Source: Lepidurus packardi (lineage: Eukaryota; Arthropoda; Branchiopoda; Notostraca; Triopsidae). From it: DNA of 64,000 bases. The notes beneath the pieces are model-generated. The model ran no database searches. It had not been told where the DNA came from and saw only the letters and a list, made by a program, of their open reading frames with translations. The stretch covers positions 1,240,001 through 1,304,000 of the forward strand of contig JAKZAN010000005.1 in NCBI GenBank assembly GCA_023053545.1. Direction: 5' to 3'. Position numbers and translations under genes: made by a program. Shown in pieces: positions 11,585 to 59,527 of the stretch; position 1 is the stretch's first letter, and every line of letters begins with the position of its first letter.

Positions 11585-13113
11585 ACCAAACAGCCCACGT
11601 CAGAGGACAGCCACAAGAGCTATGCAAGGCTTTGCTTAGCTATGCAACATCAGCAACATGCGGTGTCGTAGTCTTGTTTATGCGCTATTTGTTTAGTAAG
11701 GCTTATTTAATTTATCTATTTATTTGTAAGCGTCCTTTTTTCCAAACGCTAGGAATTTCAAACTATAGTAGAAATTTTCCTTTTTAATGTGTCAAATTGT
11801 GTGTTTTTTATGTTTCAAATAGCTTTTAAGATTTGTCAAGAAACTTTTGTTTTCATTTATGAATTTTTTCAATTACTAATAAGACATTGAACCAAAAATA
11901 TCTTATCAACAAATCCCCAACAGGTTCTCCGATTAAAAACCCAGAGACTAACAATTAACCCGGAAATGGCATCAATACTGTCATACTATTGCAAAACGTT
12001 TTCCGTAAGAAGGGTGACACACTGGTGTCACTCGTGTAGAAAATTTGTTATTGGATCGGAAATGAATTAAGTTAGGTTAGGTTAGCTTAACGAAACCGCC
12101 AAAGAAATTGTATGTGCATCGTTAACCTTGCACTTTCGTTTAATCGATCAACGTGAACTCTTTCACTCCATTAGCTGAAAAATGCATTGTTCGAAAACTG
12201 ACACGCCAGTGTCATTGCTGAGAGCGGAATACATAACACCCGTTTGTCACTAATCTGGAGAACGTGTTGCTACAAACACACAGAGCACGCAGCAAGAGTG
12301 AGAGAATTCCGTTCGAATGAACTCAATGTATTTCCGCCTTTCCAAGTGATAATTCTCTGCTAAAAAGAAAACTCAACTTCTCTCACCGTATGCCGTCAAC
12401 TATTTCAATGTGTAAAGAGCTTCGCTTTTGCCCTACACTGGCCCCCCACTAAAACGAATAGCTAAAAGAGGAAAACGCAACGGAAGCCTAAAAACTTAAT
12501 ACGAAGGTGGCTACGCAAACAACCCAAGAGAGACAAAAATGCATCGTTCCCCACACTAGTAAGTACACGTCTGCTTCCAGTGACACTTGTCCCATTTGAT
12601 AGGATTTTTCCCTAAAAAATGATCTTATATATAGCTCAATTTTCCTTTTTCTCTCAATTTTTCCGGTATGTTTGCTGGTCAAACGCATGCCATCACTTCC
12701 TTTTAAAGTCAAGTACCCATTCCCTTTTCTCCGGTTCAGCTCTTTTGTTTTCCACGTGTTTCGCTATACGACAAAGGTATAAGCTCTTCGTTGAGCCGCC
12801 AATACTTTCCTACGAAAGGATGGTTATACCGAGGAATGGGCGAGAGCGAATTCACTCTCAGGAATCGACGAAATGGTGAGCCAAGGGAGTTTTTCAAGGT
12901 CGCTCTCATGGGAATTTTGCGTACTTTAATGGAGGGGTGAGTGCGTGAATGGAAAGATGTGACGTGTGTCATGCCATGTCATGCAGACGGGGGAAAAGCC
13001 CTGGATGTTGGGTTAGGCTTTGCTTTAGCATTTGTGGTGTGGTCATTGTAAAGATTTCTCGCTTTAAGTCATAGACTGCTTACGAACGTTATTTCACTCG
13101 AGCCTCACTTTCT
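11585..13113. other. Spacer upstream of p24 gene and downstream of UPF1
   Basis: The p24 promoter should lie at the left end and the UPF1 3' UTR at the right end. Apart from the small mobile element at 11918-12269, I see only AT-rich unique sequence without a credible gene. Confidence 0.5.
11918..12269. mobile_element. TTAGG-bearing small element, copy 1
   Basis: A 352-bp non-coding element bounded by CAACAGGTTCTCC on the left and GGAGAACGTGTTG on the right, which are near-perfect terminal inverted repeats. Inside are GGTGTCACTCG, a TTAGGTTAGGTTAG stretch and the conserved TTTCACTCCATTAGCTGAAAAA block shared with the other copies. The flanking 8-mers do not match clearly, which suggests an old insertion. 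It has no coding capacity, so a transposase would have to act in trans. Confidence 0.8.
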
Positions 13114-25626: not shown

Positions 25627-28600
25627 CTAGAAAATAACCACCACAAATGCATCTTTAGCAAGAATAAAGGTTTCACAGCAGCGTGACTCATCCGGCTTAT
25701 TCACTCAACAGGTTCTCCAGTTTCGGAACCCGGACATAAAATGACACCCTATGTGTCATATATTGTTGCAAAACGTTCTCCGGAAAATGAATGACAAACG
25801 GGTGGCACTCGAGTTAAAAAGGGGTGGTTGGATTGGAAATGCATTACGTGAGGTTTGGGCTAGGTTCGGCTAACGATTCTCATCAACTCTCGTGACGAAC
25901 ATCGTTAAACGTGCACTTCTTTGACTCCACTAGGAGAAACAATAAAAATGCAGTGTTCTAAAGTGACACAAGAGTGTCTCTGTTGGCCGCGGGATACAGT
26001 TTCCATTTGTCATTGAAATCCGGAGAATGTGTTGTCTTCACGACAGTCCTAAATTTCCGTCCAATTTCTCCGCCATTGTCCCAACAGCATTAGGAAGAAA
26101 TCTTCCCATTACAGAAAACCTTTTAAGCTCCAACAAATCCGAATAGTCACACATTGATTGATCACTACTTGTCCAGAGAATGAATTCCTACACTAAACCC
26201 AAAGCGATTTGCGTGAATGAATTGCTCTAATCCTAATGCATTAATAGTAAGATTTGGATTCAGAAAGTAATACATCAAGCAGTTAGAGAAATAACTTGAC
26301 AGATAGAAAGTAAATGCTTGAAGCTTAACTACTTGGTATTACCAACTTCCCACTTCATTTTCAGTTTGAGATTCAAGTTGAGATTAAGGACGCTACTCAG
26401 ATTTGTTTCTAGCTTAATTCATTCTAAAGCTTAATTGCGCTGACGTCCGTTCCTGTACTTTGAAAAGAAAGAAAACTAATCTACCGTTCAGCAGGCAAGA
26501 GACACTCGACAGGCATATTTGTGTTCGCCACGATGGCAGCCGAAGAAACCAAACTACGCAGTTAGTAACTTGAAAATGAAACGGATCCAACAGTCTTGGG
26601 TCCCTTCCTTGTTCGTTTTCAACTTTGGTCCACTTTCTCTTATTGCTCCAAACCACCACCGAAAAGGCTTTGCTTCAATCTCAAGCTTGCCTGAACGAAT
26701 TACGTAATGTCACACTTAAATCTGGTTCATTCCGAAACACAACTGGCAAACTCTTTCCAAGTCTCGCTAAGGTTCGGCTGGGGCACAGTTATTGGCTCGA
26801 TTCAAGGACTAAACTCCAAACAAAAGCTGTCTGGCGTTTTATACGCCGTCACGCTATGCAGTTGCGGGAGCGGGAAAGTGGGCGGGGACATCCGTTTTTT
26901 CTTTCTTTTTTGGCGTTTTCTAGGTCTCCCGCACCTTTGGCTTTCGAACGGGGTGTACACAGTAAGACGGCGTTCACGTCCTGAGCATCTCCTGGGCACG
27001 TGGACAGACCCCAAACTTGACGGGAAAAAGAACACATACGCGCAATCGATTGCAAGCCCATAGCGATCCTAGCCCCACCCATTTACCCGCCTTCCCTCTT
27101 TCCCCCCTGTGCCGCGAAAGTTTCCCCACAGGAACGCCCCCCAGCTGAACTTGACATCGAGGCTGAAACAGTTGTCCATCGGAATCGAACCTTCTCGTTT
27201 TGCGGCGTTCACACAATTCTAAAAACTAAGCATGGGCTGTTTGTCTCACCCGGAAAAAAGATCCAAAGATTCTAAAACTAAGATACATTACTCAACAACA
27301 TCCTCTAAAGTTCTTCTTCGCCATGTTCTTCCCAGTTTGAGGTCACTCTTGCGACAAGTATCTAAACTCGTTCTATTGTAACCCATACAACAGTTTTTAA
27401 CCTCAATTCTCAAGGCCTTGCTTACAGTAGCTAAACTAGTCAACTTGTACCGATTTTTATACATCAAAAATAAAAAATAAAATTTCCTTGGGAAAGAAAC
27501 TTATTTGTGCAGGAGTTTGCGCCAGGACACTGTCTTGCTGTTTCTCTTCGACACAATGATTCCTGCGGGAAACTCCAGCACGTGAACAAAGAAGGGGTAA
27601 GACTTGGAGCCAGTGCCTTGATCACATGATCAGACCGGGCAAAGGTAAAGAATTTGCTATAACGCTTCAGCGCAGTTTTGACACGTTCGCCCTTATTGCC
27701 TAACTAAGGCTGTTTCGTTGACTGACTAATGGAAAGGCGAAACTCAAGTACTCAAATGAATCCTTTATTCCACTGGCCGTTTGCAACCTCCTTCTGCTTC
27801 AAGCTAAGGACATCTCCCTTGTTCTTCCCAAGCCTATGAAAAAATCGCCGAAAAAACAGCAGAAGCTAAGTTATTTGAGGTAAACAAATCCATATAAGGA
27901 AGGGCCAAGGTACAGGACTCATATAATGCTATAGTTTATAAGCGAACGTGTCCACCCTGTACTTTTGGCTCTTCTTACGCTTCTTACTACCCAAGGCGGA
28001 ACAGATGTTTCGAAAGAATACAAAATGAAATAAAGCAAAAGAACCCATCATAGGAAAAGTCAATACTAACCGTGTATCATTTGGAGTTCAAGTTTCTGGA
28101 AGCAGTGAAACGATTGATTGTTAGACAACAACTTCAAATGAGTCAATGTACAGGAAATGATCTCGCAAGTGTGCTAAACCATGCAAGTCACGTCATGGAT
28201 ATCCACATTGCGAGTCATATTTCAAACTGAAAATGGAATCCCGTGCCCTGTTTAGTAAAAGTAAAGTACTGTTTTTATTTGGAAAACAGCGATAGATAGA
28301 CTTGAAGCCCAAATATGATAAGGTATAAAATAGGCAAGGTTACCACGTTATCGTTGTTTACGCCCTCATTTAAAAGCTTACACGTATGTGACCCCATAAA
28401 GTCTGTCCAATGTCCAAGTTAGACGCGCTGCTGCATAGTAATTCTTTTGGTTAAATTTGCCGTTTGTTTACTGTCGAAACCGAGTGGAATATGGCCTTTC
28501 TTGTCTTGCAATCAAGCTTTCAATCACGCATTGACGAAGAACAGTAAACAATACAAAGCATACCTCTATTATATCTACATCTATACGAAGAAAGCAGCAT

Positions 28601-33482: not shown

Positions 33483-36400
33483 TCAAAGCACTTCACGCTT
33501 GTTCAAGTGAATGTTTTGCTCCGCACAAAAGTCCTGCATGAGTGGGATGCAGTTGAAATACGAGAGCACACTGAGCACATTCGGATCCTGCAACGGTTTG
33601 ACATAGAGCAAGATGACGAGTCCCACGAACATGACCACAAAGCCGAGGAGGCATACGCCTATGAGGATGAGTTTCCGTCTGCGGTCGTACGCTCCGAAGC
33701 TGACGAAGGGCAAAAGGGCGTACGACAATAAACCGCCCGATAAAAAGCCAAATAAATGAGCGAAATTGTCCACCCACGGCAATAGTCCCAGGAGAAAGAG
33801 TAGGCCGAGAGTGACGAGAAGTTTTCCCAAGGCCCACCAAGGCTGCTTCAACATTGGCCACGAATGAAGCACTTCCACACAGAGACAGGCAAACAAACCG
33901 AACTGCGCTCCAGCCGGACCCACCTACATGAACCAACCAAAACAATAGGTTTAGTAGTTGATAACAATACGAGTTTTCACCTCGGCTCGGTATGGCACGA
34001 AAATGGCCGACGCCAAGTTGCCAGTCACCCCGGCAAAAATGTAAATTGCTCCTAAGCGAAGAGGGCCCAGTAATCGCTCCAAATCCCGCATAAGAAACAT
34101 CTGCACCAGCACGGTCACAGTCAGATGCACGAGCCTTTTTGAAAAAGGGGAAATAGATCATTAGAATGAGCCCAAACTAATCGTTCTCGTTTTCTTTCTT
34201 TCAAAACAGGACCTAACTCTTCAAACGTTCATTTATAATGCTAGAAAGCGGGTTTTAATGAGCAGCGTGTCATTCAGAAGTACCCATAGTTAACTTTCTT
34301 TGAATATTTCGACAAGCATACATCCGAAGGTAGAAATCTTACAAGGAAGACATGCCCATTCTTGAAAGGGCCGCAAAGATGAACTTCCAGTTTCAGAACC
34401 CGGGGTGAAAATGACACCGGATCTGTCATAGTGTTGCAAAACGTTCTCCCGACAAGAAGAATGACAAACAGGTGTCAATCGAGTTGAAAACTGAAAATTT
34501 GGTAGCTGGATTGGAAATGAATTAGCTTAGGTTAGTTTAGCCTACATTATGTTAACGGTTCCCATCAACTTGCGTTGATACGAATCGTTAAAACGTGCAC
34601 TGTTTTTCACTCTCCTAGCTGAAAAAAGAAAAATACATCGTCACAGGCAAGAAGGTAACGCCATAACAGGACCAGGCGCTTTATCACACATTTTCAGCCA
34701 AGACACATGGCTTATATCATCGCAAGTTAATTACTTAAGATGTGCCTACAAATGGAGTAAACGATTTTAAACCATTAGCTAAAGTAATCAGAAGATGAAA
34801 CAGTATGCCTAATTGGAACTGAATAGTGATAGCCATGCGTCTAACCTTGTCGTCACTCGCATAACGCTAAAACTAATTCGCGTAGCTAAAGGCTGATATT
34901 TCAAAATTTGCTTACGAACCAGGCAGTGCACAGAAAGCTTCAGCGTAACTGCACCAATTGGACTATCTTTTTATTTTAATAGGTTAATATTATTATTTGA
35001 TATACACTGCTTGGTGCCTAATCAGGACCTACTTTAATAATCTACTAGCACATACTGTTAAATCTTAGTCTTCCTTTCAACTGTCGGATCTTAAAAGGCT
35101 TTCTTATTATTATTGTTATTTTTTCAGTTTTTTTTACCCAGCATGGAGAAACAGGGAGGTCCATAACCTGTAGAACTGGTCGGGCACTTCAGGGTTATAG
35201 AACGGGATCATTCCGCAGACGCTGTTCATACACGACACCTACAAACGTGGAAAAAACAAGAGACTTGTAAAAAGTACTCGCCTGCGTACAGTTTCTAAAG
35301 AACAAGCTACGCAATGTAATGGGGTTATTTTTTGGGGAGGAGGGGCGTGTTATCAATACGTATTAGTCTATGCGAAAGTGTGTAACCTGTGAGCACAAGG
35401 ATGCCTCTTCATGGAAATGGCCCCGGACAAAGCTGCAATACTCTTGGGTGGCAATTCGACATTCTCCATGGATGCCTAGGCAACAAGGGTGACCAATGAC
35501 TTCGCACACCATGTGCTCTGCTGCTTGCCCTACTCCTGCTGCCACACGTTTGCGACATTTGGGCCACTTGGTGATATCATCCGGCCATTCATAAGGCGCA
35601 ATGGAAGCCGGTTCTTTGCAAAAGCTAACAAATCCAATCAATATGGTTTTCAGAACATTTCCAGATGAGTTAAAGATCAAAAGAAGTTGGAATTCGAGAT
35701 CTGTTTTACTTGGGGTCTTGGCCACACACGGAGCCTGATATGCGTCCCCCCGGACCTGCTTGAACGGGTGTCCATTTCTTCCAGGTCGAGGTTAGATCCT
35801 GTCAAAATACGTCAAAAAAGAACAACAATGTACACCGAAATGTTCGCATGGCTAGGCCGAAACCTGCCCATAACTGCAACCCAAAACTAAAATGGGAAAA
35901 CAACGACGACCATATACCACCGAAACGGAAAGAAGTGAAGTAGCTTAAGAAAAAACAGAAATCATTTTAACGTACGACATTCCTCGGCGAACCCGAAGAA
36001 AAAGTACAAAGCTTTCAGCCAAGACACAAGCATTAGAACACTCCAAGCGATCAGCTGACCACCAAGCAAGAAAAGTAACAAAAACTTGCGATTTATATAT
36101 ATGGGAAATTGACCAGGAGATTACCCCCCCTCCTCCTTTACTCCCAGACTAGACGCAAAAAATGACTTTTTTTCAAAGGATCAAGCACACAAACGAGCAC
36201 AAAACTAAGCCCAAACTCCAAGAAAAGAAAAAAAAGCCAAGCAGCACCACAGTGCTTGAATCCTACTAACCGCCCACAATAGTCATAAAAGAAAACACTC
36301 ATTGCAGTTGGATTGTGGTTGTGCCAATGAAAGTGACCCTTACCGACTCAGCCCGTCCCCGCAGCGCGTGAGGCGACAAAGGAATCACAGACTATGCATT

Positions 36401-57009: not shown

Positions 57010-57367
57010 GTTGTTGGCAGAGCTGCAACGAGGGCGCTCGAAAATTTCGCGAGCGACGAGCGAGTTCGGTCGTTTAATTTTTTGGCGAGCGCGAGCGAAT
57101 AGCAGGAAGCAATCGCTATTTGTTACGCCATCTAACGGGCAAGCTTTTAGACTATGTAGGAAAGTTTAGTAAATAATTTTCGTTTAATAAATTTTCACAC
57201 TCCACGTTTAAGAATTTTTTACACTCCACGATGATTTTTGTAGTTTTATTGGGCTATGTGTGGGATAGCTAACAAATAAAGAATCAAAGGTTGTAGAAAG
57301 TTCCGTTTTATTATTGAAAGTTGCAGTTCTTTCCCTAGATGGCGTTTAAAAACGAGCGTGAGTGCGC

Positions 57368-57876
57368 CAACAGGTTCTCCAGTTTCGGAGATAAAAATGA
57401 CACTAGTGTGTATTATGGTTTGAAAACGTTCTCGGAAAACCAATGACAAACGGGTGTCACTCGAATTCAAAAATGGTAGTTGGATTGTAAATACATTAGT
57501 TTAGGTTAGGTTAGGTTAAGTTAGGATAGGTTAGGTTAGGTTAAGTTAGGATAGGTTAGGTTAGGTTAGGTTAGGTTAGGTTAGGTTTAGGTTAGTTTAG
57601 GTTTGATTAGGTTAGTTTAGGTTTGATTAGGTTAGGTTAGCTTAGGTTAGGTTATTAAGTTAGGTTAGCTTAGGTTAGGTTATTAAGTTAGGTTAGATTA
57701 GGTTAGCTTCACGATTCTCATCAATTTTCGTTGATGAGAGTCGCTAAAATTTGAATTTTCTTTCACTCCACTAGCTGAAAAAAGAAGAATTCATTGTTGG
57801 CCAATGACACACTAGTGTCATGTTTGACCCAGTGACACTTTACGTACGTATGTAACTAAATCCGGAGAACGTGTTG
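57368..57876. mobile_element. TTAGG-bearing small element, copy A, with expanded array
   Basis: A 509-bp element with CAACAGGTTCTCC and GGAGAACGTGTTG ends, flanked by a perfect 8-bp duplication GAGTGCGC (57360-57367 and 57877-57884). It shares its arms with copies 1 to 3, but the central TTAGG-like tract is expanded to about 200 bp (57500-57707), made of TTAGG, TTAAG, TTTAGG and TTGATTAGG variants. An inverted repeat, CTCATCAA and TTGATGAG, follows the array. It is non-coding. The ends do not fit a superfamily I can name with confidence. Confidence 0.88.
57500..57707 (+). repeat. TTAGG-like array in copy A
   Basis: Imperfect tandem units of the arthropod telomeric pentamer TTAGG, mixed with TTAAG, TTTAGG, TTAGC and GATTAGG variants. 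A matching array at 59020-59238 lies in copy B. The array is interstitial and confined to the element. Confidence 0.9.
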
Positions 57877-57903
57877 GAGTGCGCACAACAGGTTCTCCAG
57901 TTT

Positions 57904-58884
57904 CCCTCGGTGGTCATCGGTACTGGCAGCAGAACTGTACGCCATCAAGGAAGCGCTAGCAATTATCGAGAATTCGGATACAAACAAATACCTTATCCTT
58001 TCGGACTCAAGAGCTGCACTCAGTGCTATTGCTTCATATGGAAGGAGGGCCTACTTCGAAATAGTACAAGATATTCAGAATAAAATACGGTTGTTACAAA
58101 CAAACAACTTTGACATAACGTTGCAATGGGTTCCTGCACATATAGGTATCGCTGGTAACGAAGCAGCAGATTCGGCGGCAAGGATTGGAAAAAACTCAAA
58201 TCAGACAATTTTAAGAGAACTCACAAGACACGAAATCACAACCGTAATCAAACAGAAGATAGAACAAAAAGTACTTCAGCGATTAAAAAACAGCTCTTTA
58301 CAAAATCTTGTTCAATCTGCTACAAACATCAGGCCAGCACCCTGGTTATTGCACAAAAACAGAAAAATGGCAGTAGTTCTTTTAAGACTGAGATGTGGTC
58401 ACGGAAGTACAGGAGCATGGCAGCATAGGTTCAAATTAAAAAGAAATAGCGCATGTGATAGATGTGGCGAGAGAGATGATACGGTGGAACATAAGGTTAT
58501 AAAATGTCTGTATAACTCAATGGAACGTGAATTCCTCAAGAATAAAATGATTAAAGAAGGAATAGAATTTAAACTCGAGAACATTCTGGGGTTTGGCAAA
58601 CTTACGGAACATAAGCAATTTTTAGCACAATCATATCTGGCGGACTTCATAAGAATAACAGGACTAGTTGATCTCATCTAAGTAATCGGCTCGGTGATGG
58701 TCTAAACTCTATCACCTTTCATACCATGCACTTTCTTTGGCACGTCCATTCCAATTAAAGTATGTAAATTCGTGCGTGGACCAGAGAAGACAGAAGGAGT
58801 AGACAGCGACATCAAGTGGGAATGCTGCAGACGACGATGCGATGACGATTCGCCTGTCGTCTATAACAACACAAAGAAGAAGAA
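57904..58884 (+). mobile_element. 5'-truncated non-LTR retrotransposon (RNase H-bearing clade)
   Basis: About 980 bp inserted in the left arm of copy B. The 13-14 bp sequence AGGTTCTCCAGTTT is present on both sides (57890-57903 and 58884-58897). The plus strand carries the 3' part of an ORF2-type frame, a 3' UTR of about 200 bp and a short (AAG)n tail. The combination of severe 5' truncation, long target duplication and simple-repeat tail is typical of target-primed insertion. The RNase H domain with a Cys/His knuckle points to the I/R1/LOA group rather than L1 or CR1. Confidence 0.9.
57905..58681 (+). pseudogene. ORF2 C-terminal fragment: RNase H and zinc knuckle
   Basis: An uninterrupted frame of 258 codons runs from the truncation point to the TAA at 58679-58681. 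The RNase H portion has AAELYAIKEAL (catalytic Glu), LILSDSRAAL (Asp) and GNEAADSAA (Asp); the first catalytic Asp, normally in a D-G-S motif, is missing because the insertion is truncated. WVPAHIGIAGN is the usual motif before the last Asp. A C-terminal CDRCGERDDTVEHKVIKC gives a C-x2-C-x8-H-x4-C knuckle. The reverse transcriptase and endonuclease are absent, so the fragment is dead. The intact frame suggests a recent insertion. Confidence 0.9.
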
Positions 58885-59019
58885 GGTTCTCCAGTTTCGG
58901 AAATCCGAGATAAAAATGACACTAGTGTGTATTATGGTTTCAAAACGTTCTCGGAAAACGAATGACAAACGGGTGTCACTCGAATTCAAAAATGGTAGTT
59001 GGATTGTAAATACATTAGT

Positions 59020-59238
59020 TTAGGTTAGGTTAAGTTACGATAGGTTAGGTTAGGTTAAGTTAGGATAGGTTAGGTTAGGTTAGGTTTAGGTTAGGTTAGT
59101 TTAGGTTTGATTAGGTTAGTTTAGGTTTGATTAGGTTAGGTTAGCTTAGGTTAGGTTATTAAGTTAGGTTAGCTCAGGTTAGGTTATTAAGTTAGGTTAG
59201 ATTAGGTTAGGTTATTAAGTTAGGTTAGATTAGGTTAG
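59020..59238 (+). repeat. TTAGG-like array in copy B
   Basis: The counterpart of the array in copy A, with the same higher-order pattern, including AAGTTAGGTTAGATTAGG blocks. It has one more terminal block than copy A, consistent with slippage after duplication. Confidence 0.9.
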
Positions 59239-59527
59239 TTTCACGATTCTCATCAATTTTCGTTGATGAGAGTCCCTAAAATTTGAATTTTCTTTCACTC
59301 CACTAGCTGAAAAAAGAAGAATTCATTGTTGACCAATGACACACTGGTGTCATGTTTGACACTTTACGTACGTATGTAACTAAATCCGGAGAACGTGTTG
59401 GAGTGCGAGCCGCTCTATATTTTTTAGAACATCGAGCGAAGGAGCGGTTCGCTCCAGATAAAATGCGACTAGCAAAAGAGTGAGCGCGTTCGAAAAAAAA
59501 CGAGCGATCTGCAGCTCTGGTTGTTGG

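Follow-up and report, generated by a model that had tools for sequence, protein, structure and literature searches.

Stacked MITE-like transposon units at a fixed offset from a CTCF-like motif in Lepidurus packardi

Non-autonomous transposon units are known to pile up as MITE multimers or nested self-insertions, in which stacked units have target duplications in common. In bacteria, Tn7 recognises a sequence at attTn7 and, without disrupting it, inserts beside it in one orientation and at a fixed offset, using a target-selector protein of its own. To our knowledge, few DNA transposons of animals select their sites according to a constant distance from a host motif. The available text of the respective reports describes that insertion of the retrotransposon Tf1 in fission yeast is predicted by Sap1 sites and needs fork-barrier activity (PMC5371812), that P elements home when they carry insulator or Polycomb DNA, with DNA of en, bithorax and eve acting regionally rather than site-specifically (PMC3261919), and that the P-MITEs of Anopheles gambiae carry 8-bp target duplications and P-element-derived ends, the parental TIRs measuring 27-31 bp (PMC1562414). 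Here we describe a nested transposon locus of Lepidurus packardi and follow its constituent families through the genome assembly (108.6 Mb, 344 contigs). The locus lies in a 64,000-nt stretch that was analysed as a whole and is called the window below (G000:C4:1240001-1304000).

Layers of the nested locus

From the outside in, the locus comprises a hAT-like element, two head-to-tail MITE-like units of ~510 bp and, within the distal unit, a 5'-truncated non-LTR copy. A sequence-only reading of the window had described this nesting, and both the locus and its coordinates were borne out, as every junction reads as claimed in the assembly sequence. The features are as follows, in window coordinates.

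57010-57017 (left) and 59520-59527 (right), no strand: GTTGTTGG, 8-bp target duplication of the outer element, both copies read
57018-59519, + strand: outer hAT-like element, ~0.46 kb minus its inserts, inverted ends CAGAGCTGCA matching at 10/10
57337-57344, + strand: AGATGGCG, CTCF-like core within the outer element (genome row G000:C4:1297338-1297380)
57360-57367 (left) and 57877-57884 (right), no strand: GAGTGCGC, target duplication of unit 1, both copies exact
57368-57876, + strand: unit 1, MITE-like, 509 bp, motif-proximal, with ends CAACAGGTTCTCC / GGAGAACGTGTTG and a TTAGG-rich middle
57886-57903, + strand: 5' end of unit 2, interrupted by the retrotransposon, junction read
57890-57903 and 58884-58897, no strand: AGGTTCTCCAGTTT, 14-bp target duplication of the non-LTR copy, both copies read
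57904-58883, + strand: 5'-truncated non-LTR copy with a GAA-rich tail, 3' part of ORF2, RNase H (PF00075)
58898-59400, + strand: remainder of unit 2, probably the older unit, judged by target copies and not by divergence
59401-59408, no strand: GAGTGCGA, right target copy of unit 2, GAGTGCGa, 7/8 against GAGTGCGC

Elements of the hAT superfamily have 8-bp target duplications and CAG.G ends, and both were found in the outer element (GTTGTTGG and CAGAGCTGCA, respectively). Its left arm gave 13 matches in the genome, of which, besides the element itself, just three start at its first base (78, 78 and 82% identity), so that it belongs to an old, low-copy family. The earlier claim that the hAT-like element came first holds.

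The pair of units is another matter. With the insert subtracted from unit 2 (span 57886-59400), units 1 and 2 agree over most of their length, with 468 identities in 479 aligned bases and 38 gap columns, and the pair had been taken for a dimeric element that arrived next as one object. That is not the best reading, since the target recurs in the bases that separate the units, a feature unexpected for a jointly moving dimer, and neighbours in other arrays belong to different subfamilies; two separate insertions at a near-identical 8-bp target are the better reading of the focal pair. The spacer between the units, given earlier as 8 bases, measures 9 (GAGTGCGC plus A). A target duplication at each junction is exact for the outer element, unit 1 and the non-LTR copy, whereas the pair of unit 2 is imperfect (GAGTGCGCA on the left, GAGTGCGA on the right). 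This imperfection looks as if one base had been gained before unit 1 arrived, so unit 2 was probably in place first and unit 1 later inserted beside it. A check of layer divergence had been suggested, and here the two units tie (98.1/99.4 against 100/98.1% to the consensus), so that divergence gives no order for them. The retrotransposon did come after unit 2 and the outer element, as had been stated; relative to unit 1 the statement does not stand, as neither interrupts the other, and the supposedly directly readable order ends with either unit 1 or the retrotransposon as its last event.

The focal non-LTR copy corresponds to the 3'-terminal ~980 bases of a longer family, with the RNase H-bearing 3' part of ORF2 open over 57905-58681. 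Of the twelve loci fetched for this family, ten have close copies, at 97.9-99.3% identity to the focal one, and two have distant relatives only (~77%) and were unmatched in the family alignment. The longest stretch common to two fetched copies (L029 and L030) is 5645 bp at 99.75%, and ORF2 of the long relative in L029 carries endonuclease (PF14529/PF03372), reverse transcriptase (PF00078) and RNase H (PF00075) domains. These ORF2 domains, together with the 14-bp duplication and the 5' truncation, are consistent with an RNase H-bearing (I-like) element. A second copy, in L024 (C4:4926000-4929500; the same insertion as in L034), has the truncation base of the focal copy (the T before CCCTCGG) and its own target duplication, AGGTTCTATTG(T), in which the AGGTTCT target start is common to both; the two copies are apparently independent insertions with one truncation point.

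The unit family and its fixed-offset motif

Exact unit tips were detected 497 times genome-wide, against 7 for the backwards pattern used as a control. At 44 places in the fetched loci (a tally by place, identical end pairs included), 34 target pairs were exact over 8 bp, four of these shifted by one base, three had one mismatch and seven had no pair within one mismatch; unit sizes at the 34 exact-pair places ranged from 343 to 675 bp. Being short and numerous, with inverted ends and a target duplication of constant length, the units have the sequence features of MITEs. The base just outside the target copy was T in 18/32 5'-side and 17/26 3'-side flanks, which suggests a weak symmetric T-N8-A target preference.

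Stacking of these units was found well beyond the focal locus. Two outward-facing tips lay at most 30 bases apart at 14 junctions, compared with 0.018 expected, and the spacers measured 8, 7, 8, 7, 9, 8, 8, 7, 1, 10, 9, 19, 8 and 5 bases (7-9 bases in 10/14). The junctions fall in 12 arrays, two arrays holding a pair each, and 12 of the 14 are tail-to-head (p 0.006 against one half, if independent) as judged by tip letter, which is only a proxy for orientation because some units have CAACACG at both ends. In most of the arrays scored, neighbours belong to different subfamilies, as in L012 and L040, where one unit is 98-100% and the other 76-86% identical to one consensus, and in L012, L015 and L019 the target pair of the proximal unit takes in 1-3 bases of its neighbour's tip. 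The longest array among the loci fetched (L041/L042, C1:9885499-9886407 and beyond) comprises four units or more, and three of its spacers are the same AAATTTCC sequence. A head-to-head pair occurs in L020 (C5:12032713-12032746), where reverse-complementing the outer duplication GTATCCGA gives the 8-bp spacer TCGGATAC, as if a flip had taken place at the centre of a palindrome.

Within the outer element of the focal locus, GATGGC occupies 57338-57343, with 24 bases between its end and the tip of unit 1; the earlier reading did not mention this motif. It was first seen as GATGGCG at one fixed position in the left flanks of many units. Across the 108.6 Mb, GATGGC followed by 10-40 bases and a tip occurred at 96 places, 89 of them at a gap of 22-25 and 80 at 23-24, with individual gaps (counts) of 13 (1), 21 (1), 22 (4), 23 (30), 24 (50), 25 (5), 26 (1), 28 (1), 30 (1), 31 (1) and 34 (1). 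Chance expectations derived from an assumed base composition are ~2.8 across all 31 gaps and 0.18 at gaps 23-24, and the reversed motif was found at a single place, as opposed to 96 forward. Tips lacking an exact GATGGC in range number 401 of the 497, a figure that includes array-internal ends, mismatched cores and motif-distal ends. Among the 43 of the 96 strings that were listed, three spacer families recur on C1, C2 and C3, ACTGATGTTTGTTATTGTTTTGC nine times, ...GGTAAATTTCC five times and ACAGTTTTGAC... three times, and other motif-bearing repeats thus seem to be hit repeatedly as targets. The window also has other members of the unit family, diverged or incomplete (11918-12269, 25706-25957 and 34527-34638), and no motif was present in the flanks that were read there (both sides of the first, the 5' side of the second).

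Variants of the core keep the same phase. AGGTGGC lay at gap 23-24 in six of seven places and AGRGGGC in four of four, and AGRMGGC, meant as a negative control, was phase-locked too (six places, gaps 21, 21, 23, 23, 23 and 24), so that the fourth core base appears looser than the K of CTCF. The motif was likewise detected when loci were fetched irrespective of it, on the basis of resemblance to the units, tip pairs or junctions. From the 89 flanks of these loci we kept 57 (31 5'-side, 26 3'-side), dropping 30 that were array-internal, one near-duplicate and one window copy, and a match of at least 6/7 to AGRKGGC at gaps 21-25 was present in 20/31 5'-side and 8/26 3'-side flanks, compared with one and three flanks, respectively, for all other gaps up to 51. 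Inside the units themselves, 0 of 10 examined held a 6/7 core. By entry, 14 of 22 solos had a 6/7 core on at least one side (gaps 20-28) and eight had it on neither, with L044, which has no core, counted as a solo despite a tip 1 bp from its 3' end; all 14 of the 14 array or outer-flank entries had the core, L041 and L045 being outside this scoring.

The motif also has a polarity with respect to the units. On contig C1 up to 10.83 Mb, GATGGC at gap 22-25 preceded 15 of 43 CAACAGG (5'-type) tips but only 2 of 57 CAACACG tips (p 6e-5), two of the 15 having identical spacers that may reflect one event. The fixed offset, its one-sidedness, the orientation bias and the excess of tight junctions follow directly from these counts. 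Order within arrays was scored where the motif could be located, against a consensus of eight solo units and leaving out L020, L044, L045, L051 and L064. The motif-proximal unit was closer to the consensus in nine of ten arrays (L012, L014, L015, L017, L019, L037, L039, L040 and L047), a closeness that reflects subfamily as well as age because of how the consensus was built. The exception, L021, has the older-looking unit nearest the motif (95.7 vs 98.2%, 5' end only). The units of L039 are ordered in accordance with their motif, which lies on the opposite side, and the order in L041 agrees as well, its motif lying outside the fetched stretch.

A candidate factor and competing explanations

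Many target sites carry the CTCF-like core AGRKGGC, though AGRMGGC is also found at the same gap. A set of 23 flanks, required to have nothing more than GGC together with either A as first or G as second base of the core, was aligned at gaps 22-25; R at core position 3 and K at position 4 were present in 23/23 and R after GGC in 20/23, and upstream of the core C occurred at -4 in 16/23 and Y at -1 in 20/23. Set against the CTCF consensus, CCASYAGRKGGCRS in the available text of PMC6746451, this profile fits in its main features and is weak at -5, -3, -2 and the last S. The motif probably acts through bound CTCF, which we infer to be the best candidate factor. The human zinc-finger region matches colinearly at C6:9708848-9710557 in four segments, of 57, 66, 66 and 49% identity, which mark a CTCF-like zinc-finger gene. 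We call it CTCF-like only, because the top total score went to a different zinc-finger locus, at 42% identity, query residues 164-216 were unmatched and a stop is present in two of the four matches, perhaps as intron read-through.

Other routes to the motif were considered. Binding of YY1/Pho needs ATGG, and AGGTGGC and AGRGGGC sites keep the same gap without it, which argues against this factor. Self-targeting through the tip sequence was discarded, as the motif is present at solo insertions too.

We think it probable that fixed-offset, oriented and repeatable insertion beside a CTCF-like motif, acting through bound CTCF, causes the stacking. The units would be non-autonomous, MITE-like cut-and-paste elements with 8-bp target duplications, whose transposase would insert 15-16 bases beyond the core (AGRTGGCG, with a preceding Y and a C four bases before), the element's 5' end usually facing the motif. 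Bound CTCF would either tether the transposase or expose a stretch at the edge of its footprint. Such an insertion would leave the motif undamaged and the adjacent target copy at the same offset, and the same base positions would then be open to renewed insertion; the site may be hit again precisely because the motif survives. Each new unit would land between the motif and the older unit, producing mostly head-to-tail stacks with the younger unit motif-proximal. We infer serial insertion, with re-use of the site, at each array. The motif at 57337 likely explains the focal stacking, where the pair would represent a two-step stack, and since an intact motif allows repeat insertion at the same spot, a nested pile such as that in the window would be a likely outcome.

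The main rival to this explanation leaves CTCF uninvolved and has the transposase itself read AGATGGCG directly, like a site-directed transposase. A near-invariant gap (80/96 at 23-24) coupled with an orientation bias is what would be expected of one protein complex, and AGRMGGC sites keep the gap too. However, the motif in the unselected flanks extends to CTCF positions (C at -4 in 16/23, Y at -1 in 20/23), and the core is absent from 10/10 units examined, though the sequence that a transposase reads in a target may differ from the one it binds in its own ends; we regard direct reading as rather unlikely. A weaker form of our own explanation dispenses with tethering and proposes that DNA is merely at its most open where a footprint, of CTCF or another factor, ends. 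The enrichment of piggyBac and Tol2 at CTCF sites in mouse cells, described in the available text of PMC5333637, would fit such passive exposure, but openness predicts insertion on both sides and in both orientations, whereas the reversed motif occurs once against 96 times and the element is oriented, so we consider exposure on its own rather unlikely.

The stacks might instead be tandem duplications made by unequal exchange, or dimers moved as one object, and the repetition of the target duplication in spacers, including the three identical spacers of L041, is compatible with either. We reject both as improbable: neighbours differ strongly against one consensus in most scored arrays (as in L012 and L040), in L012, L015 and L019 the target copies extend 1-3 bases into the tip of the neighbour, and a new target in the middle is unexpected for a moved dimer. 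It has also to be considered that motif and tip are parts of one larger repeat, the 96 places then being copies rather than insertions, as some targets are indeed repeats (the spacer families of 9, 5 and 3 strings). Clustering of the 43 listed strings at 0.75 similarity nevertheless gives 27 clusters, of which 23 lie in the same gap range (22-25), and the 8-bp target copies vary between sites, which makes this very improbable, and we reject it too.

The 8-bp target duplication of the units fits the P superfamily in length and also fits hAT, whose CAGRG-type ends differ from the CAACA ends of the units. We detected 28 matches to PF21787 (P-type transposase) in the genome, and no coding element with unit ends was seen near those examined. 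Locus L031 stops just short of the best P transposase match and has only two tip-like places with three mismatches each, and the search for a transposase-coding relative turned up a ~1-kb unit in L042 with a longest frame of 75 aa. There is a unit tip 5 kb upstream of one match (C1:10096490), a proximity that may be due to chance. Another, at G000:C4:1084988-1085392, lies in an open frame of 1006 codons and may be an intact P element.

Implications and comparison with known systems

That a eukaryotic cut-and-paste transposon uses CTCF as a landing beacon, with base-level precision and in a preferred orientation, its copies marking germ-line CTCF sites and its stacks recording repeated hits in order, is a proposition on which we are evenly divided. 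The N terminus of CTCF and cohesin lie on one side of the motif, and if the proposition is true, the insertions would fall on that side. A CTCF beacon would make the family a natural record of germ-line CTCF occupancy and provide a means of directing insertions to the vicinity of insulators, and the transposon could reuse a site without breaking it. With such a mechanism, neither duplication nor en-bloc movement would be needed to account for tandem MITE arrays, whose unit order it predicts.

In literature on CTCF-directed transposon insertion, mainly open-access and as far as the available texts extend, we found no base-precise insertion beside CTCF motifs. MITE multimers are likewise stacked, whereas the stacking seen here is tied to an external motif, a fixed offset and a polarity. 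Oriented insertion at a fixed offset is common to this family and Tn7, which differs in being bacterial and having its own target selector. For piggyBac and Tol2, the available text describes enrichment around CTCF sites and does not describe a fixed base offset or orientation (PMC5333637). The P-MITEs of A. gambiae have 8-bp duplications in common with our units, and a motif offset is not described for them in the available text (PMC1562414). Regulatory DNA steers a DNA transposon both in P-element homing and here, although the homing fragment, in the text available, must be inside the P element (PMC3261919). Finally, Tf1 and Sap1 pair a yeast retrotransposon integrase with a host factor's sites (available text of PMC5371812), whereas in L. 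packardi a cut-and-paste element is paired with a CTCF-like motif.
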